A stretch of DNA of 21,672 nucleotides, from positions 1 to 21,672 of IMG/VR virus record IMGVR_UViG_3300005531_000033; one strand, 5' to 3'. This document shows positions 3,913-20,315 of the stretch, piece after piece. The position numbers were made by a program, and so were the translations under genes. The notes beneath the pieces were generated by a model, which saw only the letters and a program-made list of their open reading frames with translations, did not search any database and had not been told where the DNA came from. This stretch comes from a virus. The first letter of the stretch is position 1, and every line of letters begins with the position of its first letter.

Positions 3913-4274
3913 ACGCGCCTGACGCCGTCCTGCTCACCGCTCCCGCGATCGCCGAACGTCTCGGCTGCTCCGAGGATCACGCCTACCGGCTCATCACGAG
4001 CGAGATGGTGCACTGCAAGGTCGGCAACCTGCTCCGCGTGACCGAGGTGGACTTTCAGGCGTGGCTTGACTCGAAACGACGGGAACCCCGATGCGGCTCT
4101 ACAAGCGAGGGGAGTACTGGTGGTGCTCCTTCCCCTGGCAAGGCCAGACGATTCGGCGTAGCACGCGCTGCTCGACGAAATCCGCCGCCCTGCTCACTGC
4201 CCAGCGCTGGGAGCGCGAGCGAGCAGACCCCGATCACGCCGCGGCGGCATCCGCGACGTTCGGTGGCGCGGTGA
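3909..4274 (+). CDS. Excisionase-like MerR/HTH_17-family DNA-binding protein
   Basis: GTG at 3909 overlaps the preceding stop. Residues 8-57 fit the excisionase/HTH_17 pattern: VLLTAPAIAERLGCSEDHAY, then RLITSEMVHCKVGNLLRVTE and DFQAWLDSKR. This is a winged HTH that usually bends DNA at attachment sites. It lies immediately upstream of the integrase, as expected for a recombination directionality factor. The frame runs to 121 residues and its last 184 nt overlap the integrase gene in another frame. The tail (from about residue 62) is low-complexity Arg/Pro/Ser sequence and may have no function of its own. Confidence 0.7.
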   Translation: MNAPDAVLLTAPAIAERLGCSEDHAYRLITSEMVHCKVGNLLRVTEVDFQAWLDSKRREPRCGSTSEGSTGGAPSPGKARRFGVARAARRNPPPCSLPSAGSASEQTPITPRRHPRRSVAR

Positions 4275-5179: not shown

Positions 5180-5220
5180 GTCTTGAGCGAACGATTCTCC
5201 GGTGATTCTTGCGATCATCG

Positions 5221-5262
5221 TGGGCCGACCGGGACTCGAACCCGGGACCTACGGATTAAAAG
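5221..5262 (-). other. attP core: 3' half of tRNA-Lys (anticodon TTT)
   Basis: Read on the minus strand, this is the 3' part of a tRNA. It has the anticodon loop CTTTTAA (5262-5256), the 3' anticodon-stem strand TCCGT, variable loop AGGTC, a complete T arm (CCGGG-TTCGAGT-CCCGG, 5245-5229), the acceptor strand TCGGCCC (5228-5222) and discriminator A (5221). The 5' half (D arm, 5' acceptor strand) is absent beyond 5263. The fragment would restore the host tRNA-Lys gene after integration. Phage genes continue on both sides, so this is attP rather than a prophage boundary. The exact core ends need the host attB. Confidence 0.8.
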
Positions 5263-6430: not shown

Positions 6431-6780
6431 CCGCCACGTTTGAAGAGCGCGTGAAGGCCAAACTCGTAGAGATTTACGAGCTGTCGGAGGCGCTTTACCC
6501 ACGCGAAGGGAGGGTGCCGCGCGTCGAATTGGCGTCCTCCTTCGGCTACTCACGCTCGAGTGAGCGGGACCCATGGCGCCCGTACCTGGATTGGACGGTC
6601 CGCGTTTTCCACGCACCGGACAACCTGGACCACGACGAGGCGCACGGGGTCGACGTGCTCGAGACATTGGACGATGTCGTCGACAAGATGCGGGCGAGAG
6701 CCGAGGAGCGAGCAGCGTGTGCGCAGCACAAGGCGGATGCGCTCCGGCGGGTTCTTGCCGCGCATGGAGGCGGCACATGA
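6427..6780 (+). CDS. Hypothetical 117-residue acidic protein
   Basis: ATG at 6427 overlaps the previous stop (ATGA) and the stop overlaps the next ATG. The product starts MTATFEERVKAKLVEIYELS and contains an aromatic middle block (RDPWRPYLDWTVRVFHAPDN) and an acidic stretch (LDHDEAHGVDVLETLDDVVD), ending in a helical, Ala/Arg-rich C-terminus. Codon use here is less GC-extreme than in neighbouring genes. No family is recognised. Confidence 0.6.
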   Translation: MTATFEERVKAKLVEIYELSEALYPREGRVPRVELASSFGYSRSSERDPWRPYLDWTVRVFHAPDNLDHDEAHGVDVLETLDDVVDKMRARAEERAACAQHKADALRRVLAAHGGGT

Positions 6781-7442
6781 ACCCCACGGCGGAGCGGTGC
6801 ATCCAGGGCGCGCTCCGCGTCGCCCGGGAGCTCGGGGGGGCCGCCGGCGCGGCGCTCCAGGAGCTCCTGTCCGTCGCGCTGGAGGCCGAGGCGTCTTCGC
6901 TGGCCGCGACCGCGAGCCGCGCCGAGACCGCGCGCGCCGCCGCCAACGCGCGCTGGAGCAAACCCGCCGATGCGCCTGCATGCGAAACGCATGCGTCCGC
7001 ATCCTCTCTCTCTCTCTCTGATCAGAAGATCTTAAAATCCAGAGAGAGAGAGACGCCGCCGCCCATCGTGCGCGATGAGGGCATGGTGCACCGCGGCGAT
7101 CCGCTGCCGCTCGTCGCACTCGACCTCGCGCGAAAGCGTCGGCCCGACCTGACCGACGCCGAGGTCGCAACGTCGTGGGCGAAGTTCGCGGACCGCTACG
7201 ACGGCACGCGCGGCCGTGGGCGCTGGCAGCGCTGGATCGACGCCGAGCGCCCCGAGCGGGCCCCACCAGCGGCGCCCGCCCCGCCCCCGAGCGAGACCCG
7301 AATCAGGGCCGCCCCGGACCTGTCCGAGTCGGAACGGCAGGCGCTCGACTACGCGCGCCAGAACCCCGGGCTGCCTCCGATGCGCCTGGCCGACGCGCTG
7401 CATCTTGCGCAGGCCCCACCACCCGCGGCGCGCACCGGGTAG
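6777..7442 (+). CDS. Putative phage replication-region protein with disordered linker
   Basis: The 221-residue product has an Ala-rich helical N-terminal part (1-62), an ARWSKPADAPACETHASASS linker and a serine/charged run (SLSLSDQKILKSRERE). A C-terminal segment follows with a small folded block (LTDAEVATSWAKFADRYDGT, RGRWQRWIDAER) and a Pro-rich tail. Folded ends joined by a low-complexity linker after NxRW are common in phage replication-initiation or helicase-loader proteins, but no catalytic motif supports a firm call. The linker DNA carries a 14-bp inverted repeat of CT/GA and spaced ATGCG repeats, which may be an origin. ATG 6777 overlaps the previous stop. Confidence 0.6.
   Translation: MNPTAERCIQGALRVARELGGAAGAALQELLSVALEAEASSLAATASRAETARAAANARWSKPADAPACETHASASSLSLSDQKILKSRERETPPPIVRDEGMVHRGDPLPLVALDLARKRRPDLTDAEVATSWAKFADRYDGTRGRGRWQRWIDAERPERAPPAAPAPPPSETRIRAAPDLSESERQALDYARQNPGLPPMRLADALHLAQAPPPAARTG
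6970..7053. repeat. Structured repeat cluster inside the replication-region gene
   Basis: ATGCG occurs at 6970, 6980 and 6991 (10-11 bp spacing). GCATGCG-AAA-CGCATGC (6978-6994) is a perfect inverted repeat. A CT tract ends in TCTCTCTCTCTCTG (7007-7020) and is the exact reverse complement of 7040-7053, enclosing a 19-nt AT-rich loop with TTAAAA. Lambdoid phages carry their origin inside gene O, so this is a possible origin. Confidence 0.5.
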
Positions 7443-7495: not shown

Positions 7496-7507
7496 CAGCG
7501 GAGCCGG
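7496..7507 (+). promoter_or_regulatory. Repeated AGCGGAGCCG element, copy 1
   Basis: CAGCGGAGCCGG contains a GGAG Shine-Dalgarno-like core. It precedes an open frame (7491-7820) that has no ATG, GTG or TTG before a TTG at 7638. The downstream frame reads the element as AGC GGA GCC, the same phase as in the other three copies. Confidence 0.45.
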
Positions 7508-7508
7508 A

Positions 7509-7820
7509 ACGGCGTGTGAATCCTGCACGGCGCTGCGCCAGCAGCTCATCGCCCAGGGCCTGATCGTCCCTGCCTCGGTCGTCGCGCCGACCCACGCGGC
7601 GCCGACGCGGTTCCGCAACTTCGCGGGCGCGCCGGTCTTGGCGCTCGACGACCCCGAGTGCCAGCCGTGGGAGCCGGAGGAGCTCGTGGCGCCGGGCCTC
7701 CGCCGCGAACGGCTGGCGACGTACGCCGAACGCAAGGCCGACCGCCTCACCGGCTCGGGCGCCGGGCAGGGGCGCGGCTTCTCGATGGACCGCCGGGCTC
7801 AGGCCACGAGGGCAACGTGA
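7509..7820 (+). CDS. Hypothetical protein with CxxC motif; start codon not canonical
   Basis: The frame is open from 7491 (after an in-frame TGA at 7488) to the stop at 7818-7820. The segment before the first standard start (TTG 7638) looks like protein: ACESCTALRQQLIAQGLIVP, then a Pro/Ala run and NFAGAPVLALDD. The likely start is therefore upstream, near the ACG at 7509 or codon 7512, just after the repeated GGAG element. The conservative start is TTG 7638. A short GTG frame (7487-7519) would join this frame by a +1 shift at its TGA. The product is small, basic at the C-terminus and has a CESC pair. The family is not recognised. Confidence 0.45.
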   Translation, partial: TACESCTALRQQLIAQGLIVPASVVAPTHAAPTRFRNFAGAPVLALDDPECQPWEPEELVAPGLRRERLATYAERKADRLTGSGAGQGRGFSMDRRAQATRAT

Positions 7821-7860
7821 CCGCCCGTGCGCGCGCGCGCGCGACAGGAGGGCTTCGACG

Positions 7861-8334
7861 ATGAGTGGCCGCTACCACCAGGCGTTTCTGATGAAACCGT
7901 CGGGCAACGCGAATGACGGCATCAGCCAGCCCAACCCGCTGGTTTACCTCGATGGTTCGCAGGTCGTCGCCGCCGCCATGACGACCGTCCCGGTATTCGT
8001 CGCGAACGTGGACGGCTACAGCATCCAATTCGCGACCATCGCCGGCGACACGCTGGTTGGCACGCTCACGTTGCAGGCGTCGAACTCCAGAGGTAGCGGC
8101 CAGGAGCAGACCGAGAACCCCGACGTCACGCTCTACGACTGGACGACCATCGAGCTCTACGACTTCTCGACGGGCGCGTTCGCCGCGAACAAGGCCGTCG
8201 CGAGCGGCGCGGCCACGTATCTCATCGGCGTCCCGTCGCTCTACAACTGCGCCCGCTGGGTGCGCCTGGTCTTCGCGTTCACGAGCGGGAGCGGCCACCC
8301 GCGCGTGGGCTTCCAGCAGAAGGGCTGGGCCTGA
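7861..8334 (+). CDS. Beta-rich, probable virion-associated protein
   Basis: ATG at 7861 follows AGGAGG (7845-7850) after a GC dinucleotide run (7829-7840). The 157-residue product is nearly all predicted strands: VYLDGSQVVAAAMTTVPVFV, VDGYSIQFATIAGDTLVGTL and CARWVRLVFAFTSGSGHPRV are typical of small phage beta-sandwich proteins in which an expected-value/noise block ends in an RWVRLV strand. Such proteins are found near structural genes and are often decoration or fibre-like, but function cannot be assigned from sequence alone. It precedes the packaging genes and its stop overlaps the next start. Confidence 0.65.
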   Translation: MSGRYHQAFLMKPSGNANDGISQPNPLVYLDGSQVVAAAMTTVPVFVANVDGYSIQFATIAGDTLVGTLTLQASNSRGSGQEQTENPDVTLYDWTTIELYDFSTGAFAANKAVASGAATYLIGVPSLYNCARWVRLVFAFTSGSGHPRVGFQQKGWA

Positions 8335-8525
8335 TGGGGATGCCGATGGCCAAGCTCTGTCGATTCGGCCGCGTGGTCTCCACGGTGCCGGATTACGACG
8401 GCACGCCGATGCTCATCATCCGACGAGAGACCGTCAACGGCGGCAGCCCGCGACGTGAGGTGTACCTGAGGCGCGACGCTCCGAGCGGTACCGAGTTTCA
8501 TTACATCTACACGGAGCGGAGCTGA
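8334..8525 (+). CDS. Hypothetical 63-residue beta-rich protein
   Basis: ATG at 8334 overlaps the previous stop by one base (TGATG), and ATG 8346 is an alternative start. The sequence (KLCRFGRVVSTVPDYDGTPM, then LIIRRETVNGGSPRREVYLR) suggests a small all-beta domain. The gene ends in a one-base overlap with the next ATG, which has the ribosome binding site GGAGCGGAG. No family is recognised. It probably belongs with the virion-type protein upstream. Confidence 0.55.
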   Translation: MGMPMAKLCRFGRVVSTVPDYDGTPMLIIRRETVNGGSPRREVYLRRDAPSGTEFHYIYTERS

Positions 8526-8851
8526 TGCCCGGCTCCCCCCGCAAGCGCGCGCGCAAGCTGGGCCTGCACGTCCCGAACGCCGGCGGCCGGCCGCCCAAGC
8601 ACCCGCGCACGGTGGCGCCCGTGGCCGATGCGGAGCTGACGGCGCTCGCGCGCGCGGCGCTCGCGGAGGTGCTCGGCGCGACCGGCAAGCGCGCCAACGC
8701 GCACGCCAAGGTCGCCGCGGCCAAGGCCTGGCTCGAAGCGATGCGCCTGGCCGGCTCGCCGTCCATCGGCGAGCTCGAGACGCTCACGATCGAGGAGCTC
8801 GAACAGCGATACACCGCGGCGCAAGCCGTGCTGAGAGGACGCGTCCAATGA
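8525..8851 (+). CDS. Basic helical protein; possible small terminase-like subunit
   Basis: ATG at 8525 follows GGAGCGGAGCTG. The 108-residue product has a very basic N-terminus (MPGSPRKRARKLGLHVPN, then GGRPPKHP) that could contact DNA in an AT-hook-like way. Two helical segments follow (ELTALARAALAEVLGATGKR and AHAKVAAAKAWLEAMRLA) and an acidic C-terminal helix (LETLTIEELEQRYTAAQAV). The size, basic N-terminus and place upstream of TerL would suit a small terminase subunit, but no recognisable terS motif is seen, so this remains a guess. The stop overlaps the next ATG. Confidence 0.5.
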   Translation: MPGSPRKRARKLGLHVPNAGGRPPKHPRTVAPVADAELTALARAALAEVLGATGKRANAHAKVAAAKAWLEAMRLAGSPSIGELETLTIEELEQRYTAAQAVLRGRVQ

Positions 8852-9039
8852 CCGCCGAGACCCCCAAGCAATCCCGCGAAGACTGGCACGAGCTCGTCAA
8901 GAGCGCGCTGCCGGGCGACCCTGCGCCGGCGCTGCACGAGACGGACGCCGCGGTGCACTGGCTCTGCACGCGCCACGGCCTGGGCGAGCACGAGGCGCGC
9001 AAGGTCATCGCCGACGCGATGGCCCGAGCGGAGCCGTAA
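8848..9039 (+). CDS. Hypothetical 63-residue protein
   Basis: ATG at 8848 overlaps the previous stop (ATGA). The product starts MTAETPKQSREDWHELVKSA and carries a helical LHETDAAVHWLCTRHGLGEH segment ending in a basic helix. Its stop TAA (9037-9039) lies within the spacer between the repeated AGCGGAGCCG element and the next, startless frame. No family is recognised. Confidence 0.55.
   Translation: MTAETPKQSREDWHELVKSALPGDPAPALHETDAAVHWLCTRHGLGEHEARKVIADAMARAEP
9026..9036 (+). promoter_or_regulatory. Repeated AGCGGAGCCG element, copy 2
   Basis: GAGCGGAGCCG ends one base before the TAA of the upstream gene. The GGAG core (9030-9033) is 5 nt before an in-frame ACG (9039) and 8 nt before TCG (9042) of the GNAT-like frame. 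The phase relative to the downstream frame is the same as in the other copies. Confidence 0.45.
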
Positions 9040-9536
9040 CGTCGACGATCGCGGGCCTGCCCACCAAGATCCGGCCGCTGCGGCGCGAGGTCGACGACGA
9101 ACGAAACTTCGTCGCGCGCGCCTGGGCGAGCGAGATGCGCCGGGCGCCCATGTACCGGTACGAGCCGCAGGAGGTGTACTGGGACGGCCAGCACCGGATG
9201 ATCCACCGGCTGCTCGAGAGCGAGGCGTGTCTCATCGCCGCCGACGCCCAGGACGACGACCACCTCTACGGGTGCGTGGTGTTCACGCCGGCGAAGGCCG
9301 CGGTGGTCCACTGGATCTACGTGAAGGGGACGTATCGGCGCGTGCGCTTGGCGGAGGCGCTCTTGACCGAGGCGATCGGCGACAAGCGCCCCATCATCTG
9401 CACGCAGGCCAACGAGCTCTTCGACAACCGCGAGCTGGTTGCGCGCCATCAGCTCGTCTTCTGCTCGAGGCTGCTGCTCGGCATCGCGCCGAACCTGCCC
9501 GAGCTTGCGGCGCAAGGAGTTCACGTCGATGGCTGA
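9039..9536 (+). CDS. GNAT-fold acetyltransferase-like phage protein; non-ATG start likely
   Basis: The first ATG in frame is at 9135, but the frame already reads as protein from about 9042: TIAGLPTKIRPLRREVDDER, then NFVARAWASEM. This would supply the first strand and helix of a GNAT fold. Downstream, CVVFTPAKAAVVHWIYVKGT and YRRVRLAEALLTEAI match the central strands and the acetyl-CoA-binding loop region (VKxxxRRxGLAxxLL), though the R/Q-x-x-G-x-G/A loop is imperfect. No ATG, GTG or TTG occurs upstream. The GGAG element at 9030 places ACG 9039 as the best near-cognate start. Proteins of this type occur next to terminase genes in other phages. The substrate is unknown. From ATG 9135 the domain would lack its N-terminal strand. 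Confidence 0.6.
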   Translation, partial: TSTIAGLPTKIRPLRREVDDERNFVARAWASEMRRAPMYRYEPQEVYWDGQHRMIHRLLESEACLIAADAQDDDHLYGCVVFTPAKAAVVHWIYVKGTYRRVRLAEALLTEAIGDKRPIICTQANELFDNRELVARHQLVFCSRLLLGIAPNLPELAAQGVHVDG

Positions 9537-9816
9537 CCCCAAGATCGTCCCGGCGGGCGCGTCCCGCTTCGTCCGCCCCGTCGTCGGCGCGCTGCACGAC
9601 GTGCGCTTCGGCGGCGTCGTGCTGTTGCCCGGCGGCCGGCAGTGCAACCAGAACATGAACCCCTGCGCTCCCGACCAGAAAGGCTGGGAGGTGCGGATCG
9701 ACTGGGAGATGCGCGCCGTCTGGATCGGTCACTCCGGCGGCTGGGCGGTCGTGCCGTTCGAGGACGTGCGGTACATGGCCTTCAAGCCGGTCGAACCCCC
9801 GAAGGACGCGGCGTAA
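9529..9816 (+). CDS. Hypothetical 95-residue protein upstream of terminase
   Basis: ATG at 9529 follows AAGGAG (9514-9519) and overlaps the previous gene end by 8 nt. The sequence begins MADPKIVPAGASRFVRPVVG and contains beta-like blocks (VRFGGVVLLPGGRQCNQNMN, GWEVRIDWEMRAVWIGHSGG) ending in WAVVPFEDVRYMAF. This repeats a GW-V/I alternation seen in small SH3-like or OB-like domains, but no family is assigned. TerL follows after one base. Confidence 0.6.
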   Translation: MADPKIVPAGASRFVRPVVGALHDVRFGGVVLLPGGRQCNQNMNPCAPDQKGWEVRIDWEMRAVWIGHSGGWAVVPFEDVRYMAFKPVEPPKDAA

Positions 9817-9817
9817 C

Positions 9818-11284
9818 GTGGACCTCGCCGAGGCGCGCGCCATCGCGGTGCAGCGGGCCAAGCGCGCGACGCGCGCGGCCTCGATGCTCTCGGCCTGCCT
9901 GCCGGAGCAGCGCGCGGCGATCGTCGACCCGGCGCGCCTCAAGGCCCTTTTCTGCACGCGCCGCGCGGGCAAGTCGCTCGCCCTCGGGATGTACTTGCTC
10001 CTGACGGCGCTCGCGTACCCGCGCTCGAGCTGCCTGTACCTCGGCCTCACGAAGGCGTCGGCGACCGGCATCATGAACAAGGACGTGCTGCGCGTCCTCA
10101 ACGACCGCTTCCAGCTCGGCGCGCACTGGCGCGAGAGTCACTCCCGCTGGGAGCTGCCGAACGGCTCGTACATCTACCTGCGCGGGGCCGACGCGAACGC
10201 CTACGAAATCTCGAAGGTCGTCGGGCAGAAGTACCGGCTCGCGGTGCTCGATGAGGCGAGCAAATACCGCTACATCGTGCGCGACATAGTGTACGGGTCG
10301 CTCGTTCCCGCGATGGGCGACGACCTCGGCACCATCGTGCTGAGCGGCACGCCGAGCAACATCACGACAGGCCTCTTCTACGACGTGACGACCGGCGCGG
10401 AGAAGGGCTGGAGCGTGCACCACTGGACGTGGCGCGAGAACGTCTTCCGCCTCGCGAACATCCAGCGCAACCACGATGAGCTCGTCGCCGCGAACCCCGA
10501 CGTCATCAGGACGCCGCTCTACCGGCAGGAATGGCTGGGCGAGTGGGTCGTCGACGCGTCGGCGCTCGTCTACCGGTTCGACCCGCAGCGCAACGCCGCC
10601 GCGGAGCTCCCCAAGCCGCGCGCCGAGTACACGTACGTTCTCGGCGTCGACCTCGGCTTCACCGATCCGAGCGCTCTGGTCGTCGGCGCGTACCACCCGA
10701 ACGACCCGACGCTGTACGTCCCCTACGCCCACAAGGCCGCGGGGATGACCATCTCCGACGTGGCCGCGTTCATCAAGGGCCTCTGGTTCTGTCCGGGCTC
10801 GGGGCACCGCGGGCCGTACCCGTTCGCGGCGATGGTGGCCGACGCGAGCGCGCTGCAGGCCGTCGAGGAGATGCGCCAGCACCACCGGCTACCGATCGAA
10901 GCGGCCGAGAAGCCCGGCAAGCGCGGCGTCATCGAGGTCATGAACTCCGACCTCGTGACCGGCCGCATTAAGCTCCTGCCCGAGGCGATGGGGATCGCCG
11001 AGGAGTGGGACGCCCTCGTATGGGACGAGCGCGAGCGGGCGAAACTCCCATCGCGGTGGGTCGAGGATCCGCGCTTCCCGAACCACCTCGCCGACGCGGC
11101 GCTCTACTGCTGGCGCAAGGCGCGGGCCTACGACGCGCTCCCCGAGAAGCCGACGGAGCCGATGCCGGGGACCGAGGCGTGGGAGCAGCTCCGGCATGAG
11201 CGCGAAATGGCGCGGATCGCGCGGTTGCGCGCCGAGGGGCCGATCGCGATGGACGAGCTGCCGCCATGGCTGAGGGAGGTCTGA
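9818..11284 (+). CDS. terL: Large terminase subunit (ATPase-nuclease)
   Basis: GTG 9818 starts a 488-residue protein of normal TerL length. The ATPase domain has a Walker A variant FCTRRAGKS (about 45-53), Walker B LAVLDEA (141-147, with catalytic E146) and the coupling motif LSGTPS (175-180). The RNase H-like nuclease domain shows the three acidic positions D278 (LGVDLGFTDP), D342 (MVADAS) and D426 (HLADAALY). It pumps DNA into the capsid at the portal and makes the terminal cut. It is followed by portal, scaffold and capsid genes in usual head-gene order, with several extra small genes between. Confidence 0.95.
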   Translation: MDLAEARAIAVQRAKRATRAASMLSACLPEQRAAIVDPARLKALFCTRRAGKSLALGMYLLLTALAYPRSSCLYLGLTKASATGIMNKDVLRVLNDRFQLGAHWRESHSRWELPNGSYIYLRGADANAYEISKVVGQKYRLAVLDEASKYRYIVRDIVYGSLVPAMGDDLGTIVLSGTPSNITTGLFYDVTTGAEKGWSVHHWTWRENVFRLANIQRNHDELVAANPDVIRTPLYRQEWLGEWVVDASALVYRFDPQRNAAAELPKPRAEYTYVLGVDLGFTDPSALVVGAYHPNDPTLYVPYAHKAAGMTISDVAAFIKGLWFCPGSGHRGPYPFAAMVADASALQAVEEMRQHHRLPIEAAEKPGKRGVIEVMNSDLVTGRIKLLPEAMGIAEEWDALVWDERERAKLPSRWVEDPRFPNHLADAALYCWRKARAYDALPEKPTEPMPGTEAWEQLRHEREMARIARLRAEGPIAMDELPPWLREV

Positions 11285-11285
11285 C

Positions 11286-11483
11286 GTGCTGCTCTGGGGC
11301 CTCTGCTCGGACGGCGTCGCGCACGCCTTCGATGTCGAGCCGTACCAGCAGCTCGAGGCGCCACGCCTCAGCGTCTGCGAGCGCGCGCGCTCCGAGCACA
11401 TCGCGCAGGGCTTCCCGACCGAGCAGACGCCCGAATGCGGCGACTGCATCGCGTGGACGCCGCCGGCGACGGGGGGCAAATGA
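11286..11483 (+). CDS. Hypothetical 65-residue protein with Cys pair
   Basis: GTG at 11286 lies one base after the TerL stop, and the gene overlaps the next ATG. The product has C7, C31 and CGDC at 51-54, which could make a small metal site, but spacing is irregular. No family is recognised. Position suggests co-translation with TerL. Confidence 0.5.
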   Translation: MLLWGLCSDGVAHAFDVEPYQQLEAPRLSVCERARSEHIAQGFPTEQTPECGDCIAWTPPATGGK

Positions 11484-12088
11484 ACCTCATCCTTGTCCGA
11501 CACGGTGAGACGGCCCTCAACCGCAAGGGCGACGCCGAGGAGGGCACCGGCGAGAGCGCCGAGCGCATCCGCGGCTGGCTGGACGTCCCGCTCGACGACA
11601 ACGGCTTCCGGCAGGCCGTCGACACCGCGCGCAAGCTCGCGGGCCGGCGCATTGACCACGTGTACGCCTCGAACCTGCAGCGCGCGTACGTGACCGGCCA
11701 GCTCATCGCGGCGATGACCGACGCTCCCATCGAGCCGGAGCAGGCGCTTCGCCCGTGGAACGTCGGGCGCTGGTCCGGCCGGCCCGTCGACGAAGTGCTC
11801 CCGAAGATGAAGGAGCTCATCTCCCAGCACCCCGAGGAGTCGGCACCCGGCGGCGAGCCGTTCGCCGCGTTCGTGGCGCGCTTTCTCACGGCGCTGCGCC
11901 GGATGCTCGGGCACGCGAAGACGACCGACGGCGACGTCTGCGCCGTCACGCACACGCGCAACCTGCAGCTCGCGAAGGCCTGGGTGGCGGCGGGCGCGCC
12001 GGCGAGCTTCGCGTACGACCCGGCCGTCATGGACGACTACGACAACGAGACCGGGACCGGCGACTTCATCACGCTGGAGCCGCGATGA
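11480..12088 (+). CDS. Histidine phosphatase (phosphoglycerate-mutase-like) protein
   Basis: The 202-residue product starts MNLILVRHGETALN with the family-defining RHG motif (R7, H8). The second basic site is R68 in YASNLQRAY, the acid residue E126 lies in GGEPF, and the second His is H158 in VTHTRN. The core of the histidine phosphatase superfamily is therefore complete. These enzymes remove phosphate from small molecules or proteins through a phosphohistidine intermediate. The substrate here is unknown. It lies between TerL and portal, an unusual place for a metabolic enzyme, and could alter host nucleotide or signalling pools in late infection. ATG 11480 overlaps the previous stop (ATGA). 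Confidence 0.85.
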   Translation: MNLILVRHGETALNRKGDAEEGTGESAERIRGWLDVPLDDNGFRQAVDTARKLAGRRIDHVYASNLQRAYVTGQLIAAMTDAPIEPEQALRPWNVGRWSGRPVDEVLPKMKELISQHPEESAPGGEPFAAFVARFLTALRRMLGHAKTTDGDVCAVTHTRNLQLAKAWVAAGAPASFAYDPAVMDDYDNETGTGDFITLEPR

Positions 12089-12429
12089 TGGGCCGGCAGC
12101 TGTCGATCCCCGGGACGACGAGGTTTCAGCCGCAGGCGTGGCTCCGCGGCGACGAGCAGTTGCGCCAGGCGGCGCGCGCGCAGCGAAAGGCGAAGGCGAT
12201 GATGGAACAGAAGGCGAGCCTGCACCTGGCCGAGGTCGAGGAGCAGATCGGGCGCTTCGAGCAGGCCAAGAGCGACATCGAGACGAAGGTCAAGGCCCTG
12301 AACGAGCAGGGCGCCGAGCTGCAGGCCAAGTACGTCGACGTGATGCGCAACCTCGAGCGGCTCCACGCGGCGCGGACGGCGCTCCGGCACGTGGGGGCGA
12401 CGCTGCCGAGCGACCTGGTGGCAACGTGA
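12085..12429 (+). CDS. Hypothetical coiled-coil protein
   Basis: ATG at 12085 overlaps the phosphatase stop, and a second ATG follows directly at 12088. Residues 25-95 are a long, charged heptad-like helix (MMEQKASLHLAEVEEQIGRF, EQAKSDIETKVKALNEQGAE), the rest a short Gln-rich N-terminus. Coiled coils like this occur in scaffold or head-assembly helper proteins. The function is not shown. Its stop overlaps the next GTG (GTGA). Confidence 0.6.
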   Translation: MMGRQLSIPGTTRFQPQAWLRGDEQLRQAARAQRKAKAMMEQKASLHLAEVEEQIGRFEQAKSDIETKVKALNEQGAELQAKYVDVMRNLERLHAARTALRHVGATLPSDLVAT

Positions 12430-12998
12430 CCGAGCCCGACGTTCCCCCCGAGCTCGTGAGCGAGGATCGGCCCCTGGTGCCGACCGAGCCCGCGCCGCCC
12501 CCGCTCGACGCCGCGACCGAAGCGGAGCTCGCCGCCTGGCAGCCGAAGCCGAACGTCTTGGCCAGGCCGCTCGACGAACGCGAGGGCTTCCGCCGCCTCG
12601 AACGGATGCGCCAGTTTATGCGACGGCCCGGCGTGGCCGCCCCGCCGGCCAGCACCGCGGGCGAGGCCGAGAAGCGGGAGCGCGAGATGCGCGAAGCGGA
12701 GGTCACCGAGGCCGCGCGCCGCTCGCAGGCCGAGATCCGCCGCCACGTCGACGCGTACCTCAAGGAGCACTTCGAGGGCATCGTGACCGACGTCGCCAAC
12801 GTCGTCGTCGAGCACGTGCACGATCGGCTGATGAAGGGGATCGCGGGCCTCCAAGAGAACCAGGCGATCCGCCTCGACCAGATCGCCGCCGACATGCGCG
12901 CGCAGCTGCGCGCGTTCATTCGTGACGCCTGGGCCGGCAAGCCGGTCGCCAAACCCGCCCAACGGGCGCCGAAGGGGCGCGCCCGTGCCAAGCGATGA
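12426..12998 (+). CDS. Hypothetical protein with RPLxxxEGFRRL motif and coiled coil
   Basis: GTG at 12426 overlaps the preceding stop. The 190-residue product has a Pro/acidic N-terminus, the segment RPLDEREGFRRLERMRQFM (residues about 47-65), a Glu/Arg-rich helix, and a helical C-terminal part with VVVEHVHDRLMKGIAGLQEN and a basic Lys/Arg tail. The RPL-x3-EGFRRL motif is repeated in the next gene, KPLSNYEGFRRLDK. The last 14 nt overlap the next gene. No family is recognised. Confidence 0.6.
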   Translation: MTEPDVPPELVSEDRPLVPTEPAPPPLDAATEAELAAWQPKPNVLARPLDEREGFRRLERMRQFMRRPGVAAPPASTAGEAEKREREMREAEVTEAARRSQAEIRRHVDAYLKEHFEGIVTDVANVVVEHVHDRLMKGIAGLQENQAIRLDQIAADMRAQLRAFIRDAWAGKPVAKPAQRAPKGRARAKR

Positions 12999-13341
12999 CC
13001 CGCCGAAGGGCTACATCCGCAAGCCGCTGTCGAACTATGAGGGCTTCCGGCGCCTCGACAAGAGCTTCGAGAAGATCGAAGCGCGCGACCGGGCCCGCGA
13101 GAAGGTCTGCGACGTGTGCGGCCGCCGCATGCGCGCCTGGCGCCTGGTGCCAGCAACGTTCGGGCAGAAGCTCGGCATCACCCGCGCGGGGCTCTCCGGC
13201 GGGCTGACCGGGCGCAAGTTCGTCGTCGCGTGCGACAGCGGGCCGGACTCCTGCGCCGCGACGCTGCTACGCGCCGGCGTCGACAAGGTGGCCGTGCCCG
13301 AGCACGAGGCCATGGAGCGCCTGGGTCTGGTGCTGCCGTGA
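12985..13341 (+). CDS. Putative zinc-motif protein with EGFRRL motif
   Basis: GTG at 12985 is in frame, giving 118 residues; the ATG at 12995 is out of frame. The N-terminus contains KPLSNYEGFRRLDKSFEKIE, similar to residues 47-65 of the upstream protein. A CDVCGRRM knuckle (about 42-49) and a C-x7-C pair (CDSGPDSC) about 40 residues later could together bind one metal. The rest is helical. A nucleic-acid or protein-binding role is plausible. The stop overlaps the next GTG. Confidence 0.6.
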   Translation: MPSDDPPKGYIRKPLSNYEGFRRLDKSFEKIEARDRAREKVCDVCGRRMRAWRLVPATFGQKLGITRAGLSGGLTGRKFVVACDSGPDSCAATLLRAGVDKVAVPEHEAMERLGLVLP

Positions 13342-13580
13342 GCCCCGCCGACCTCGCGAAGTACGCCGAGGTGATGGTGCGCTTCGGCATCGGCCGGCTC
13401 GTCGTCGACGGCGTGACCATCGAGCGCCCCGCCATGGCGCCGATGCCCGACCACGACGAGAAGAAGCCGGACGACGAGGCGACCGCCGGCGACGACGCCG
13501 ACGAACTCACCAAGATCCAGCTGATGAGCCCCGACGCACAGGACGCGCGCCTGATGCTCGGACCGACGAGGCGACCGTGA
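13338..13580 (+). CDS. Hypothetical acidic 80-residue protein
   Basis: GTG at 13338 overlaps the preceding stop and the gene overlaps the portal start. The first 30 residues (VSPADLAKYAEVMVRFGIGR, then LVVDGVTIE) look folded. The rest is acidic and disordered (DHDEKKPDDEATAGDDADEL). The function is unknown. Its location is consistent with a small assembly factor. Confidence 0.55.
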   Translation: MSPADLAKYAEVMVRFGIGRLVVDGVTIERPAMAPMPDHDEKKPDDEATAGDDADELTKIQLMSPDAQDARLMLGPTRRP

Positions 13581-15493
13581 AGCGCCGCTCGGTCACCCGC
13601 ACACCGAAGACGTACACGACCGAGAAGCGCACCGTCGCGTCGAGCTCGCGCACCAACGTGCTGCAGTTCGTCGACTGGTACGAGCGCCAGGGCGCCGACC
13701 TCGCGGAGGCCGTCTTCGGGCGCGTGCGGCAGATCAAGCAGGCGCAGATCACGCGCCGATTCGAGCTCTACACCTACCAGCAGGCGTACAACTCCCGCTT
13801 CGGGCCGCAGCTGATGGCGCAGCTGTTCTCGCCGGCAACGCGCAACCCGTCGGCGGGCCTCTACGGCATCAGCGCGAACATCATCAAGAGCTGCATCGAC
13901 ACCGCGTGCGCCCGCATCAGCAAGGAAAAGCCGCGCGCGTTCGTCCTGCCGAAGAAGGGCAACTACCGGCTGAAGAAGAAGGCGCGAAACCTCCAGAAGT
14001 TTCTCGATGGCGTGATGCAGTCGAGCGGCTTCTACTCGGGCGCCGAGGACGTCTTTCGCGACGCGTGCATCTACGACGGCGGCGCGATGCTGATCTGGGC
14101 GCCCGACGGCGCGATCAAGGCCGAGCCGCTCAAGGTCGACGAGGTCCAGATCGATCAGGTCGACGGGATGTTCAACGACCCGCGCGAGGTGCACTGGACG
14201 CACCCGGAGCCGCGAAAGAAGCTGCTCAAGCGCTACCCGCAGTTTGCCAAGGAGATCGAGCTCGCCCGCTCGCAGTGGCGCGGCGAGATGAGCTTCATGG
14301 GTCAGGCAGACCTCGTCGAGGTCGTGCGCTCGTGGCGCCGCCCGTCCGCTCCCGGCGCCGGCGACGGACGCCACACCGTGGCGATTTGCACGGCCACGCT
14401 CGAGGACGAGCCGTGGACCAAGGACTACCTGCCGATCATCCGGTTCCACTGGACGCCGCCGACGTACGGGCCGTGGGGGGACGGCATCGCCAAGGAGCTC
14501 TTCGGCCTGCAGCGCGCGCTGACCGACATCCTGAAGGGCATCGTCAAGTCGATCCGCATGTTCGCGGTGCCGCGCGTGTGGGTCTCCAAGCTCTCGAACG
14601 TCGCGACGACGGTGGTCTCAAACGAGATCAGCGTGAACGAATACGCGGGTGATAAGCCCGTCTTCGAGACGCCGCCCGCCGCGTCGCCCGACGTCTATCA
14701 GTTCGTGCAGTGGGTCATCGACTGGGCCTACAAGCAGCTAGGTCTGTCGCAGCTGACGGCGCAAAGCGAGAAGCCCGCGGGCCTGAACAGCGGCGTCGCG
14801 ATGCGCACGTACCAGGACGTGGAGACGCAGCGCTTTGCCCTCGTCGGCCAGCGCTGGGAGCGCTTCTTCATGGCGGCCGCGCGCCTCTTCATCGACACGG
14901 CCGCCGACGTCTACAAGGACAAGGGCGCGCTCTCGATGACCGTGCCCGGCCGCGGCTTCGTCGAGCAGATCGACTGGAAGGACGCATCCATCGACGACGA
15001 CCTCTACGACCTCGAGATCTGGCCGACGGGCATCCTTCCCGAGACGCCCGAGGGTAAGTTCCAGGCCGTGCAGGAGTGGATCAACTCGGGCTTCATGCCC
15101 AAGGACATCGCCCTGCAGCAGATGCGCATGCCGATCCTGAACGACTGGATCGCGGAGGAGACCGCCGCGCGCGACAACATCGAGCGCTGCCTCGCGAGCA
15201 TCCTCGAGCGGCCCAAGCCGAAGTACCTGCCGCCCGACGCCATCACGAACGTGGACCTCGCGGTCACGATGGCCATGAGCGCGAAGCTCATCGCCGAAGA
15301 CGAAGACGTCGAGCCCGAGCGCATCGAACTCGTGCAGCGCTGGCTTGACCGCGCGCTGCAGCTGCAGGCGCTGAAGCGCGCCCCCCTGACGCCACCAGGC
15401 CAGCCGACGCCCGTGGTCGGCCAGGCCCCCACGCCGCCCCCCGCACCCATGGCGCCTGCCGGCGCCGGTCCGGTGCAGGCCGCGGCGGCATGA
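13577..15493 (+). CDS. Portal protein
   Basis: The 638-residue product starts at GTG 13577. A wing/stem-like domain is suggested by the arrangement of helices: FVDWYERQGADLAEAVFGRV and the conserved-looking NIIKSCIDTACARISKEKPR early, then the ACIYDGGAMLIWAP and WTHPEPRKKLLKRYPQFAKE region. A long helix WVIDWAYKQLGLSQLTAQSE with NSGVAMRTYQDVETQRFALV follows, the block often seen in podovirus-type portals. The C-terminus is Pro/Ala-rich. The portal is the dodecameric ring for DNA packaging and tail attachment. Its place between TerL and scaffold supports the call. Recognition is by overall pattern, not by a single signature motif. Confidence 0.85.
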   Translation: MKRRSVTRTPKTYTTEKRTVASSSRTNVLQFVDWYERQGADLAEAVFGRVRQIKQAQITRRFELYTYQQAYNSRFGPQLMAQLFSPATRNPSAGLYGISANIIKSCIDTACARISKEKPRAFVLPKKGNYRLKKKARNLQKFLDGVMQSSGFYSGAEDVFRDACIYDGGAMLIWAPDGAIKAEPLKVDEVQIDQVDGMFNDPREVHWTHPEPRKKLLKRYPQFAKEIELARSQWRGEMSFMGQADLVEVVRSWRRPSAPGAGDGRHTVAICTATLEDEPWTKDYLPIIRFHWTPPTYGPWGDGIAKELFGLQRALTDILKGIVKSIRMFAVPRVWVSKLSNVATTVVSNEISVNEYAGDKPVFETPPAASPDVYQFVQWVIDWAYKQLGLSQLTAQSEKPAGLNSGVAMRTYQDVETQRFALVGQRWERFFMAAARLFIDTAADVYKDKGALSMTVPGRGFVEQIDWKDASIDDDLYDLEIWPTGILPETPEGKFQAVQEWINSGFMPKDIALQQMRMPILNDWIAEETAARDNIERCLASILERPKPKYLPPDAITNVDLAVTMAMSAKLIAEDEDVEPERIELVQRWLDRALQLQALKRAPLTPPGQPTPVVGQAPTPPPAPMAPAGAGPVQAAAA

Positions 15494-15498
15494 CCCTC

Positions 15499-15509
15499 GA
15501 GCGGAGCCG
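15499..15509 (+). promoter_or_regulatory. Repeated AGCGGAGCCG element, copy 3
   Basis: GAGCGGAGCCG follows the portal stop by five bases. The GGAG core (15503-15506) is 8 nt before an ATA (15515) that directly follows an in-frame TGA and opens the frame leading into the scaffold gene. The phase is the same as in the other copies. Confidence 0.45.
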
Positions 15510-15673
15510 GATGAATACCTGACGCAGCCCCCGCACCGAACGCAGCCCCGAGCCCCGCCGCGACGCCGCCCGCGCCCGCGGCCACCCCGCCCGCGTCGAC
15601 GACCGCGCCGGCGCCGAGCTCCGGAGCGACGCCGAAGCCTCAGCCGCCGCTTCGCCGGCGCCTGGGCGACCCG

Positions 15674-16699
15674 ATGAGCAAGCCCATCGTCGTGCGGCCG
15701 ACGCGCCACGACGTCGCGACTGCTGCGCCCGCGCCCGCCGCGAACGCAGCGCCCCCGGCACCGACCGACAAGCCGATGCCGGGGGCTTCCGCGCCACCGG
15801 CCGTCCCGACGACAACCCCACCGACCACGGAGCAGGCGCAGCCTACCACGCCTGCGCCCGACGCGGCGGCGGCCGCCAAGCCCCCCGAGCCGCCGAAGCT
15901 CGACGAGGCCGAGGAGGCCAAGCGGATGGCGCGCATCCGCACCGCGGAGGGCCGCCTCGCGCAGGACCGGGCGACCTTCGCGCAGGAAAAAAGCGCCTTC
16001 GCCCAGGAGCGCGCGTCGCACGCCCAGGCGCTCGAGCAACTCAAGACGATCCAGCAGGCGGCGCAGACCGCGCGGCAGGACCCGATCGCCTTCATGCGGC
16101 GCCTCGGTGTGGAACCGTCGGTCATCCTCGAGGCGCTCATCGCCGACGGCGCGAAGCCGCCCGCGGCGCGCCAGCAGGAGATCGACGCGGCGCGCGATCG
16201 CGAATACCGCGCGCGACTGGACGAAATCCAGCGGCAGTTGCAAGCTTCCCAGGAGGCCCAAGCTCAAAGGGCCCAGGCCGAGCAGGTCTCCCAGTACAAG
16301 ACCGCCACCATCGCGCCTGTTCTCGCCGACAAGGCCAAGTACGAACTCACCCTCCGAGCTCTCGGGGATAAGGCCGTCGACGAGGTCTTCGCCGTTCAGC
16401 AGGCGTTCTACCAGCGCTCGCAGCGGCTGATCCAGGAAGGCAAGCTCTCAGAGCCGGTCGTGCTCTCACCGGCCGAAGCAGCAGACAAGCTCGAAGCTAA
16501 CTATCGGTCGCAGCGCGACCTGCTGAGCGGGACAAGCGCAAAGCCCGCCCCAGCGCCCCAGCCCCCGACACGGCCCGAGCCCCCGGCAGCTCCGACAAGC
16601 GGCTCCCCAGCGCCCAACCCGGCCACGCCCACCAGCAAGCCGGGAGCGTTCTCGGTGGCCGGCGAGTCATTAGACACCAAAAACTCTCGCCGCTTCTGA
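15674..16699 (+). CDS. Scaffold protein (possible upstream extension to 15515)
   Basis: From ATG 15674 the product has 341 residues. A long Pro/Ala-rich N-terminus (to about 75) is followed by a highly charged helical region with repeated FAQE units (RLAQDRATFAQEKSAFAQER) and EIDAARDREYRARLDEIQRQ. A Pro-rich, disordered region and a short C-terminal end follow. Long coiled coils flanked by disordered ends just before the major capsid gene are typical of scaffolds that direct procapsid assembly. The same Pro/Ala composition runs upstream in frame to ATA 15515, after the repeated GGAG element. The true start may be there, or the frame may be entered from the short ORF at 15490 by a +1 shift. 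No strong ribosome binding site precedes 15674. Confidence 0.75.
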   Translation: MSKPIVVRPTRHDVATAAPAPAANAAPPAPTDKPMPGASAPPAVPTTTPPTTEQAQPTTPAPDAAAAAKPPEPPKLDEAEEAKRMARIRTAEGRLAQDRATFAQEKSAFAQERASHAQALEQLKTIQQAAQTARQDPIAFMRRLGVEPSVILEALIADGAKPPAARQQEIDAARDREYRARLDEIQRQLQASQEAQAQRAQAEQVSQYKTATIAPVLADKAKYELTLRALGDKAVDEVFAVQQAFYQRSQRLIQEGKLSEPVVLSPAEAADKLEANYRSQRDLLSGTSAKPAPAPQPPTRPEPPAAPTSGSPAPNPATPTSKPGAFSVAGESLDTKNSRRF

Positions 16700-16711
16700 C
16701 GTGAGCGCGGC

Positions 16712-16724
16712 CCCGCGAAGCGGG
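16712..16724 (+). promoter_or_regulatory. Short hairpin before the major capsid gene
   Basis: CCCGC-GAA-GCGGG is a perfect 5-bp stem with a 3-nt loop, followed by AAAA and the GTG at 16732. Placed 7 nt before the start, it could affect capsid mRNA stability or translation. It is too small and lacks a T run, so it is not a typical terminator. Confidence 0.35.
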
Positions 16725-16731
16725 AAAAGCC

Positions 16732-18057
16732 GTGTCCACCTCCACTCAGCTCGACGCACTCTACAAGCAGCGATACCCCGACGGCCTCGAAGACCTGACG
16801 TTCCGCGATCGGCCGCTCCTCGCCCTCGTCGGCAAGAAAACCGACCTCGGGGGCGCCAACGCCACGACGAGCCGCGCCTACCACGTGCCGTTTCGGTACG
16901 CGTTCCCCTCGGCCGTCTCGGGAAGCTTCTCGTACGCCTCGACCCGGGCCGCGAGCGTCTCGTCACGCGTCGTCGCCTGGGAGCTGTACACGATGCACCA
17001 GTACAGCTTCATCAACATCGACAACGAGAGCCTGAAGCGATCCATCGGCAACGAGAACGCGTTCCTCGAGCTCCGGGGCTTCGAGTTCGATGGCGCCGTC
17101 GAGAACCTCGCCAACCGCCTGCACAACTTCCTCTACGGCGACGGCACGGGCGTCATCGCCCAGGTGGGTAACGCCACCCAAATGCCGAGCTTCGCGGTGA
17201 GCGTGCTCGTGCTCTTCAACAGCGAGGACGCGGCTCGCTTCGCGTACGGCGACGAGCTCGACGTGTCCGCGACGCGCTCGAGCGCGACCAACCGCGCCTA
17301 CGGCGCCAACGGCCATGGCCTCTACGTCATCGGCGTCAACATGGACGCCGGGACCATCACCGTCGGCAACGCCGCGGGGACGGCCGTGAACCTCAACGAC
17401 GCGAACGACGGGATCCCGACGATCGCCAACCTCGACTTCATCGCCCACCGCGGCGACCACCAGGTGGCCGGCACGCTCGGCGGGACGGTGCTCGACGGCT
17501 TCCAGCAGTGGGTGCCGTCGCTCGCGACGGGCATCTCGGGCGGAGACAACCAGTACAGCGTGAACCGCTCGGTCGCGCCGGACCTGCTGGCCGGGTCGCG
17601 CTTCGACGGCACCTCGTACGGCATCGAGGAGGCCTTCATTCGCGGCGCGAACGTCGTGGCGAAGAAGCAGGGCAAGATCTCGAACTACTTCACGACGCAC
17701 AAGCACTACTCGGACCTCGTCAGCGCGATCGCCTCGCGCGGCGTCGTGAACTTCCTCGAGTTCTCGCCCGCCGACAAGCCGGACATCGGCTTCGAGGGCG
17801 TGCACATCATCGGCGCCAACTCCGGCGCGATCGACGTCATCCCGGACTACGCGTGCCCCTCGACGGTCGGCGTCGGCATGCTGCTCGACAAGTGGCAGCT
17901 CGTCAGCGTGGGCGAGACCATCCAGATCATGAACACCGACGGCAACGAGACCCTTCGTTTGCCAACGGCCGACGGCGTCTCGGCCTACTGGTACTCGTAC
18001 AGCAACTTCGTTCCGATGTCGCCGCGCGACAACGTGAACGTGACGCTGCCCTTCTGA
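16732..18057 (+). CDS. Major capsid protein (HK97-fold type)
   Basis: The 441-residue product starts at GTG 16732. Features fitting an HK97-fold capsid are an N-arm (YKQRYPDGLEDLTFRDRPLL), an E-loop-like beta segment (YHVPFRYAFPSAVSGSFSYA), a long spine helix (ENAFLELRGFEFDGAVENLA, NRLHNFLYGDG) and a P/A-domain block of alternating strands (VIGVNMDAGTITVGN, IEEAFIRGANVVAKKQGK), ending VPMSPRDNVNVTLPF. It follows the scaffold gene directly. No protease is seen in this window, so it may assemble without cleavage. Copy number is expected to be high. The next frame begins in a short gap after its stop. Confidence 0.9.
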   Translation: MSTSTQLDALYKQRYPDGLEDLTFRDRPLLALVGKKTDLGGANATTSRAYHVPFRYAFPSAVSGSFSYASTRAASVSSRVVAWELYTMHQYSFINIDNESLKRSIGNENAFLELRGFEFDGAVENLANRLHNFLYGDGTGVIAQVGNATQMPSFAVSVLVLFNSEDAARFAYGDELDVSATRSSATNRAYGANGHGLYVIGVNMDAGTITVGNAAGTAVNLNDANDGIPTIANLDFIAHRGDHQVAGTLGGTVLDGFQQWVPSLATGISGGDNQYSVNRSVAPDLLAGSRFDGTSYGIEEAFIRGANVVAKKQGKISNYFTTHKHYSDLVSAIASRGVVNFLEFSPADKPDIGFEGVHIIGANSGAIDVIPDYACPSTVGVGMLLDKWQLVSVGETIQIMNTDGNETLRLPTADGVSAYWYSYSNFVPMSPRDNVNVTLPF

Positions 18058-18066
18058 GCGGAGCCG
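18056..18066 (+). promoter_or_regulatory. Repeated AGCGGAGCCG element, copy 4
   Basis: GAGCGGAGCCG overlaps the last two bases of the capsid stop. The GGAG core (18060-18063) is 8 nt before ATA (18072), the presumed start of a frame that has no ATG, GTG or TTG for more than 130 codons. The phase is the same as in the other copies. Confidence 0.5.
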
Positions 18067-18071
18067 AACGA

Positions 18072-18572
18072 ATAGGCAACCCCCTTTCCAACCGAGCCAC
18101 CGCAGGGCTCGAGAACGAAGGCCTCGAGATCGGCGGCTTCATCGCCCTCGACGGCTCATCGAACGTCATCGGCTATCTGCCGACAACCTCACCCTTCAGC
18201 GCCGCCGGCCCCTTCACGCGGTGGAGGGGCGCCCAGAAGCAGATCGGCCAGGCCGGCTCGATCGTCACGCAGCCCCACACCGCGACCGGCACGTACATTT
18301 TCACCCTCGACGAGCCGTGGTTTGGGGCGCTCGAGGCGTGGGTTCAGCTGGCCGACCAGGGCGCGGTCAACGCCCTGAACGGCTTCGTCGACGTCAACGC
18401 GACCGGCTTCACCGGGTCGACGTCGTACGGCTTCTTCCCGGGCCAGAACCAGACGCTCGCGGCGCAGACCGTGCGCGTGCGGTTCCGCAACGCGACCGGG
18501 ACGCTCACCGACCCGGTCGCCAGTACGGGCTTCTGGATCGGCGTCCTGCTCAAGCGCACCGGGACGGTGTGA
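18072..18572 (+). CDS. Probable head decoration / capsid-associated beta protein; no canonical start
   Basis: This frame clearly encodes protein, but no ATG, GTG or TTG is present from the capsid stop until about 18470. The natural-looking start is the ATA at 18072, giving 166 residues that begin IGNPLSNRATAGLENEGLEI; a CTG at 18054 overlapping the capsid stop (CTGA) is an alternative. The body is beta-rich (GFIALDGSSNVIGYLPTTSP, TATGTYIFTLDEPWFGALEA, NATGTLTDPVASTGFWIGVL), as in small proteins that follow capsid genes and bind the capsid surface. The function is inferred from position and beta content. The start is discussed under the repeated GGAG element. Confidence 0.65.
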   Translation: MGNPLSNRATAGLENEGLEIGGFIALDGSSNVIGYLPTTSPFSAAGPFTRWRGAQKQIGQAGSIVTQPHTATGTYIFTLDEPWFGALEAWVQLADQGAVNALNGFVDVNATGFTGSTSYGFFPGQNQTLAAQTVRVRFRNATGTLTDPVASTGFWIGVLLKRTGTV

Positions 18573-18845: not shown

Positions 18846-20315
18846 GTGACGCTGCCGACCGACCTCTCCGGCCTCATCGTCTGGTATCGCGGCGACAGCG
18901 TCACCGCGAACGGCACCGTCGTCGCGTCGCTGCTCGACAAGAGCGGCACGGGCGACCCGAACAAGGTCGCGAACCAACTGTCGGCGGGGCTGCGCCCGAC
19001 ACTCAACGCCGTCGACCCGAACTTCAACAGCAACCCGACGATCCAGTTCAACGGGTCTCAGTACCTGGTGACCGGCACCTTCACGACGCCGATCACCCAG
19101 CCCACGACGCGCTTCATCGTCGGGCTCGCGACGGGCAGCGGGCCCGACTACATCATCGATTCGATCAACCCGAGTCTCCAATACTCGGTGTCGGCGCCGC
19201 CCGGTTCCATCGTGCAGTTCAACGGCGGTACGCTCTCCATCGGCGCGAACTTCGCCGTGCCGGGGATCGTCATCATCGTCGACAACGGCGCGTCGAGCTC
19301 GTGCGTGCTCGGCACGACGGTGCTCAACAGCGGCAACGCGGGCCCCAACGGCGCCACGGGCCTGACCATCGGCGCCTACGCTGGGACGGGCTTCAACCTC
19401 ACCGGCACGATCGCCGAGATCATCATCTACAACCGGGTGCTGTCGGCGACCGAGATCCAGGCCGTCGCCGGCTACCTGCAGCAGCGCTACGGCATCCCAG
19501 TCTTCGCGGCCACCGTCTCGCCGACGCTCGTCGGGCCGTCGCTCGCGGACCTGCGCCTCGCCGCCCAGCAGCGCGCCGACCGCGTGAACGTCTCGACCAT
19601 CTCGACGAGCGAATGGAACTGGTACATCAACAAGAGCGCCCAGGAGCTCTACGGGCTGCTCGCGAGCACGTACCAGGACTACAACGTCAAGAGCGTCGCG
19701 GTGACGCTCCCCGGCGGGTCGCAGGCCGGCAACTCCTTCCAGGTCGGGCCGAACCAGACCATCGCGAGCGACTTCTTCCAGCCGCGCGCCTTGTGGCTGC
19801 AGATCGGCGGCTCGCCGACGCCGTACGTGACCATCCCGCGCCTCGAGAGCCTGAACGAGCGCAACCTCTACGTGTTCCCCAACATCGTGCCCGTCTACGG
19901 GGCGATCCCCTCGCGCTGGAACATCCTCGGTAGCACCATCGAGATCTTGCCGCCGACGGTCGGCGGAAACCAGTACGTCCTCTGGTACGTGCCGGCGCTG
20001 CCCACGCTCTCGAGCGACACCGACTCGATCGCCCAGTACTGGCTCAGCATCAACGGTTGGGACGAGTACGTCACGCTCGACGCCGCAGCCAAGGCGCTCA
20101 TCAAGGAGGAGAGCCTCGACACGGCGAACTTGCTGCTCCAGCAGAAGATGGCCCTGCGCGAGCGCATCCTGCGCGAGGCTGCGCCGCGCGACATCTCGCA
20201 GCCGCAATCGATCGTCGACATGAACCGCATCCGCAACCCCTGGGGCGGCTGGGGCGCGGGCGGGATGCCGGGCCCCGGCTGGGGCGGCGACGGCACCGGA
20301 ACGGGGTGCTGGTGA
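18846..20315 (+). CDS. Phage head-tail adaptor with N-terminal lectin-like (LamG) domain
   Basis: The 489-residue protein appears to be a fusion. Residues 1-218 resemble a LamG/concanavalin-like jelly roll: LSGLIVWYRGDSVTANGTVV, VASLLDKSGTGDPNKVANQL and the closing FNLTGTIAEIIIYNRVLSAT, EIQAVAGYLQQRYGI. Residues 230-465 match the phage adaptor pattern: SLADLRLAAQQRADRVNVST, SEWNWYINKSAQELYGLLAS, NVKSVAVTLPGG, EYVTLDAAAKALIKEESLDT and LLQQKMALRERILREAAPRD. The tail (466-489) is Gly/Trp-rich. Usual adaptors are about 220-250 residues, so the lectin domain is an addition. It would join the portal to the tail and could display a sugar-binding surface at the neck. The GTG start at 18846 is the first in frame. 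Confidence 0.75.
   Translation: MTLPTDLSGLIVWYRGDSVTANGTVVASLLDKSGTGDPNKVANQLSAGLRPTLNAVDPNFNSNPTIQFNGSQYLVTGTFTTPITQPTTRFIVGLATGSGPDYIIDSINPSLQYSVSAPPGSIVQFNGGTLSIGANFAVPGIVIIVDNGASSSCVLGTTVLNSGNAGPNGATGLTIGAYAGTGFNLTGTIAEIIIYNRVLSATEIQAVAGYLQQRYGIPVFAATVSPTLVGPSLADLRLAAQQRADRVNVSTISTSEWNWYINKSAQELYGLLASTYQDYNVKSVAVTLPGGSQAGNSFQVGPNQTIASDFFQPRALWLQIGGSPTPYVTIPRLESLNERNLYVFPNIVPVYGAIPSRWNILGSTIEILPPTVGGNQYVLWYVPALPTLSSDTDSIAQYWLSINGWDEYVTLDAAAKALIKEESLDTANLLLQQKMALRERILREAAPRDISQPQSIVDMNRIRNPWGGWGAGGMPGPGWGGDGTGTGCW

Follow-up and report, generated by a model that had tools for sequence, protein, structure and literature searches.

The window analysed here is the whole 21,672-base linear sequence of an IMG/VR virus record, and is probably a fragment. 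Its tyrosine integrase gene adjoins a tRNA-Lys(TTT) 3'-end sequence (~5219-5262) that is probably attP. A 42-base stretch of this attP-like tRNA-Lys sequence occurs exactly in four metagenome-assembled genomes (three Polyangiaceae and one Myxococcales), which makes a polyangial myxobacterium the likely host. Near the integrase, a gene at 2557-3075 gave weak matches to matrixin-type metallopeptidases and carries a HELGHAMGL motif. At 7003-7060, within the coding frame 6777-7442, a CT-repeat is followed by its own reverse complement (CTCTCTCTCT ... AGAGAGAGAG) and is capable of forming a hairpin. The late operon has the order terminase, portal, scaffold-like gene, capsid, post-capsid gene and SU10-like adaptor.

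Four genes, referred to as sites 1 to 4, have no ATG, GTG or TTG near their onset, and each is directly preceded by a copy of the 10-base element AGCGGAGCCG (Table 1). Downstream, canonical codons first appear in frame at TTG 7638, ATG 9135, ATG 15674 and GTG 18471, respectively, so that the frame at site 4 runs for 133 codons without one. At site 1 the start is placed at ACG 7509, with ACG 7527 as a possible alternative. At site 2 the ACG overlaps the TAA of the preceding gene by one base (TAACG), and at site 3 an in-frame TGA (15512) lies between the element and the gene. The same GGAG at site 3 also stands 4 nt ahead of the ATG of an out-of-frame, three-codon minigene, which could compete for ribosomes.

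Table 1. Coordinates of the four genes, the element copies and neighbouring features in the window
Feature	Position	Strand	Remarks
Tyrosine integrase gene	4091-5179		
Element copy 1, AGCGGAGCCG	7497..7506	+	GGAG is the likely Shine-Dalgarno sequence
Site 1 gene, 103 codons, CxxC motif	7509..7820	+	Proposed start ACG 7509; coding onset, detector match
Element copy 2	9027..9036	+	Lies in the 3' end of the gene before it (8848-9039)
Site 2 gene, GNAT acetyltransferase-like	9039..9536	+	Proposed start ACG 9039; Pfam PF00583 (E=1e-4); coding onset; L004 homologue
Portal gene	13577..15493	+	GTG start; phrog_332 (E=1.5e-5)
Element copy 3	15500..15509	+	
Out-of-frame minigene ATG AAT ACC TGA	15511..15522	+	Overlaps the site 3 ATA; from sequence
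Site 3 gene, judged scaffold-like from its place between the portal and capsid genes	15515..16699	+	Proposed start ATA 15515; L004 homologue
Major capsid gene	16732..18057	+	GTG start; phrog_14242 major head protein (E=9e-5)
Element copy 4	18057..18066	+	Shares the final base of the capsid stop codon
Site 4 gene, 166 codons, immediately 3' of the capsid gene	18072..18572	+	Proposed start ATA 18072; L004 homologue

A search of both strands of the window recovered exactly the four copies of AGCGGAGCCG that the initial annotation had reported by eye, all on the + strand and none on the - strand. Order-2 and order-3 Markov simulations of the window gave an expectation of ~0.1 forward copies, and none of the simulated sequences contained four. 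A 500 kb stretch of a complete Polyangia genome contained one copy, two strands combined. However, simulation also indicated that some 10-mer with at least four copies always turns up in sequence as GC-rich as the window, so the count by itself is little evidence and was dropped as an argument. The notable point is position: among 28 tabulated starts, the genes behind the 10-mer are the same four as those without ATG, GTG or TTG. The annotation had also noted that the downstream frame reads the element as AGC GGA GCC in all four cases, and that GGAG lies 5 nt before the ACG codons and 8 nt before the ATA codons, and both statements hold. The probability of about 1 in 27 that it attached to this shared phase does not, because spacings of 5 and 8 nt differ by 3 and the phase is not an independent observation.

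All four sites have the same bases around GGAG, and sites 3 and 4 further have GAGCGGAGCCGRAYGAATA in common. No RNA hairpin or other structure common to the four sites was found, nor were tRNA or Rfam elements. A shared hairpin was dropped as an explanation. The ACG regions are structured, while the two ATA regions (-9.5 and -10.3 kcal/mol) are the least structured among the starts examined. The shared bases flanking GGAG could stem from intragenomic copying of a ribosome-binding segment, or form a translational operator.

We used a codon log-odds model to locate the onset of coding in each frame. At sites 1, 2 and 4 the signal was positive from the proposed codon onward and negative upstream in frame, amounting to +22.6 across the 43 codons preceding TTG 7638 at site 1 and to +106 ahead of the first canonical start at site 4. 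At site 3, where the start region is alanine/proline rich, the onset was ambiguous, with a weak indication from the detector described below. This detector, which is blind to the motif, flagged 3 of the 32 window genes; these were sites 1, 2 and 4, each with a Shine-Dalgarno sequence and a near-cognate codon. None of 18 genes was flagged in the related contig L004 described below. In 500 kb of the complete Polyangia genome, which served as a stand-in for comparison and is not the known host, 3 of 328 genes were flagged and none combined a Shine-Dalgarno sequence with a near-cognate codon. The difference between 3/32 and 0/328 (Fisher p = 0.0006) is to be read as descriptive only, because the threshold was set after an earlier version of the detector had overlooked site 4 owing to a spurious upstream GTG at 17508. 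Smaller control sets, with their own models trained on little sequence, gave 3/80, 1/35, 0/43, 0/14 and 2/22 flagged genes, and the false-positive rate on fragments is therefore a few per cent. Site 4 (132 codons, 66 nats) is far beyond the false-positive range.

The sole close relative found was IMGVR_UViG_3300037205_000045 (L004). Capsid, terminase and post-capsid alignments revealed no further close relatives in IMG/VR, a pattern search of GTDB contigs yielded no capsid relative, Polyangia genomes yielded only distant ones, and INPHARED contained no capsid or post-capsid match. L004 has the same late-gene order as the window, with 78% identity in the capsid, 64-65% in the terminase, 64% in the post-capsid gene and 57% in the portal. 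Its post-capsid gene begins ATG GGC AAC CCC (MGNPLANR) and is preceded by TGA GGGAGATGATCC, whereas site 4 reads ATA GGC AAC CCC (IGNPLSNR), preceded by TGA GCGGAGCCGAACGA. The ATA at 18072 thus stands opposite the L004 ATG at the aligned first residue (IGNPLSN vs MGNPLAN), the clearest of three such comparisons. In the GNAT gene of L004 the ATG and the TGA before it share one base (TGATG), and the ACG of site 2 lies within one residue of it. The scaffold-like gene of L004, 42% identical to site 3, starts ATG CCG CCC GAC at 8854, where the window has ATA CCT GAC, and the residues RRRLGDP, encoded shortly before ATG 15674, correspond to RRTLGVP in L004. No homologue of the site 1 gene was found in the loci compared.

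The start positions are thus fixed by both homology and coding onset at sites 2 and 4, less firmly by modest homology at site 3, and by coding onset only at site 1; none of these positions holds a canonical start. Distant portal relatives that were examined have ATG at the start of the gene after the portal, and since L004 has ATG at the three comparable starts, the start positions are right and ATG is probably ancestral, with the near-cognate codons derived in the lineage of the window. The annotation had looked to relatives both for ordinary starts elsewhere and for conservation of the motif. Ordinary ATG codons were indeed found in L004, but at the same positions, which supports the placement of the starts; neither AGCGGAGCCG, absent at the equivalent L004 starts, nor the near-cognate codons were conserved.

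Taken together, these observations make it likely that four phage genes are translated from near-cognate starts, namely ACG at 7509 and 9039 and ATA at 15515 and 18072. GGAG would pair with the 16S anti-Shine-Dalgarno and bring ACG or AUA into the P site at a normal distance, as in ordinary 30S initiation, and the initiator fMet-tRNA would be accepted at these codons. Ribosomes terminating at the adjoining upstream stop would probably assist by coupling. The spacings are workable, and the same GGAG distances occur at canonical starts of the contig (5 nt at ATG 6215 and 12085; 8 nt at ATG 8525 and GTG 3766). The host 16S 3' end was sought with no match. Stop-to-start junctions range from the 1-nt overlap at site 2 to 14 nt at site 4 and 21 nt at site 3, and TAACG is a junction of the kind seen as TGATG at 8334, 8525, 20315 and 20626. 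Near-cognate initiation behind a fixed Shine-Dalgarno element, as the annotation had proposed, is therefore supported as to initiation by the L004 ATGs, the coding onset, the spacing and the low likelihood of error or decay (see below); the fixed element is half right, as the 10-mer is no stronger a Shine-Dalgarno sequence than GGAG at canonical starts and is absent at the equivalent starts of the relative.

That ACG and AUA are actually used, with methionine as first residue and in sufficient yield, is what we infer from these features. Weak starts sit oddly with the abundance that scaffold and post-capsid proteins usually show. AUA starts in S. aureus yield ~10-30% of AUG (PMC13009471), and the GTC start of Streptomyces sigR is controlled (repressed) by IF3 (PMC5472188). 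Efficient initiation at ACG is disfavoured by the requirement, seen in vitro, for Watson-Crick pairs at the first two codon bases (PMC10158994). Our literature search found no phage genes with ACG or AUA starts. ATA makes up 2 of 5,476 internal codons, yet two of the starts. Decoding of AUA as methionine was considered and rejected: both AUA codons within genes fall at variable hydrophobic positions of the alignments and are uninformative, and the ACG starts would still be unexplained.

The missing starts could also be artefacts or lesions. Each site is one substitution from ATG, site 3 has an ATG (15511) that a single extra base would split from its frame, and the source is a metagenome contig, all of which would suit sequence or assembly error. 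We nevertheless consider it unlikely. Of the single-base changes possible in the late genes, 147 would abolish a start and 1,073 would introduce a stop within the first 90% of the gene, which puts start losses at 12% of the possible single-base nulls; four start losses with no recognised nonsense change have P ~2e-4 if changes are random, assuming an equal chance per change and no broken gene overlooked. Nor does random error predict a 10-mer common to the same four genes, and L004 has no such gene among 18. Decay of an inactive integrated phage would fit the integrase and attP-like tRNA-Lys sequence of a temperate phage, but is very improbable: the reading frames otherwise appear intact, null changes would be expected to be mostly nonsense or frameshift, and the shared element is again not predicted.

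That the true starts lie elsewhere is also hard to credit. Alternative start codons do exist, at the four downstream positions given above and, for site 4, at GTG 17508, but the downstream starts would sacrifice residues that L004 conserves, along with regions of strong coding signal. The GTG lies far upstream within the capsid gene in a frame scored at -174 for coding, and in L004 the ATG of the post-capsid gene is closely preceded by an in-frame stop. For site 3 this explanation could instead invoke a frameshift from ATG 15511. The context AUG AAU ACC UGA C recalls RF2-type programmed +1 frameshifting in having UGA then C shortly after an in-frame ATG; ACC-UGA, however, differs from the CUU-UGA slip site of RF2, the CUU-UGA-C site with an SD-like stretch upstream was not found, and L004 has no homologous frameshift.

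A further possibility, to which we assign a similarly low probability, is that AGCGGAGCCG is the target of an RNA-binding factor, of phage or host origin, that governs initiation at the four weak starts jointly. Identity beyond GGAG at all four sites, the additional GAGCGGAGCCGRAYGAATA at sites 3 and 4, and the placement of every copy at these genes would suit an operator. On the other hand, the core is explained by GGAG alone, the sites have no common RNA structure and the element is not conserved in L004. No factor gene was found in the contig, although one may lie outside this probable fragment. Operator and near-cognate starts combined would amount to a post-transcriptional regulon, with a phage or host factor (a change in IF3 activity, or an RNA-binding protein) turning on ACG/AUA initiation in the scaffold-like, post-capsid, GNAT and small CxxC genes as a group; we regard this scheme as improbable. 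Among the matches listed for AGCGGAGCCGNAACG in viral contigs (at least 119 stretches) there was no convincing near-cognate start, and the same was true of the 22 stretches with AGCGGAGCCGNNNGAATA. Three ACG candidates (L081, L150 and L168) passed a purely mechanical filter, but their frames were not coding-like or had a canonical start downstream. With no convincing second case among the viral-contig matches listed, the element was dropped as a candidate for a widespread phage initiation signal.

The proposed near-cognate initiation at the four sites has precedents in bacteria. The AUA- and AUU-started genes of S. aureus (infC, ccpN, citZ and cvfC1) likewise have a near-cognate codon, AUA included, at a position fixed by the Shine-Dalgarno sequence, and the AUA of citZ is limited to one strain lineage, just as the change in the window is lineage-specific (PMC13009471). 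Those genes, however, have extended, strong Shine-Dalgarno sequences and starts mapped by Ribo-Ret, whereas the phage sites have GGAG only, as at canonical starts of the contig, include ACG and are known from sequence. Streptomyces sigR, co-transcribed and coupled in a high-GC bacterium, resembles the window in its non-standard start (PMC5472188), but it is a single conserved regulatory gene with genetic proof, and the window has four phage genes whose near-cognate codons are replaced by ATG at the three comparable L004 starts. As neither conservation nor an extended or unusually strong Shine-Dalgarno sequence was found, the four genes fall outside the conserved regulatory class of infC, ccpN and sigR. 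The observation is real and unusual, and is best filed as a lineage-specific variant of known near-cognate initiation, seen in the sequence of one contig.

Gene finders restricted to ATG, GTG and TTG would shorten or miss these genes; at site 4, a 166-residue protein beside the capsid would be reduced to ~33 residues. If the starts are used, the phage offers a means of testing whether ACG and AUA can sustain the synthesis of structural proteins through Shine-Dalgarno placement, coupling or a trans-acting factor, and why a single lineage left ATG in several genes that follow one common sequence.

Two further features of the late region were observed. A histidine-phosphatase-like gene (MNLILVRHGETALNRKG; 11480-12088) lies in the packaging module between the terminase and portal genes, and a counterpart was not seen in L004. 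At 18846-20315, the SU10-like adaptor domain is fused to an N-terminal segment that gave weak matches of lectin/laminin-G type, whereas the adaptor of L004 is a separate gene of 257 aa.
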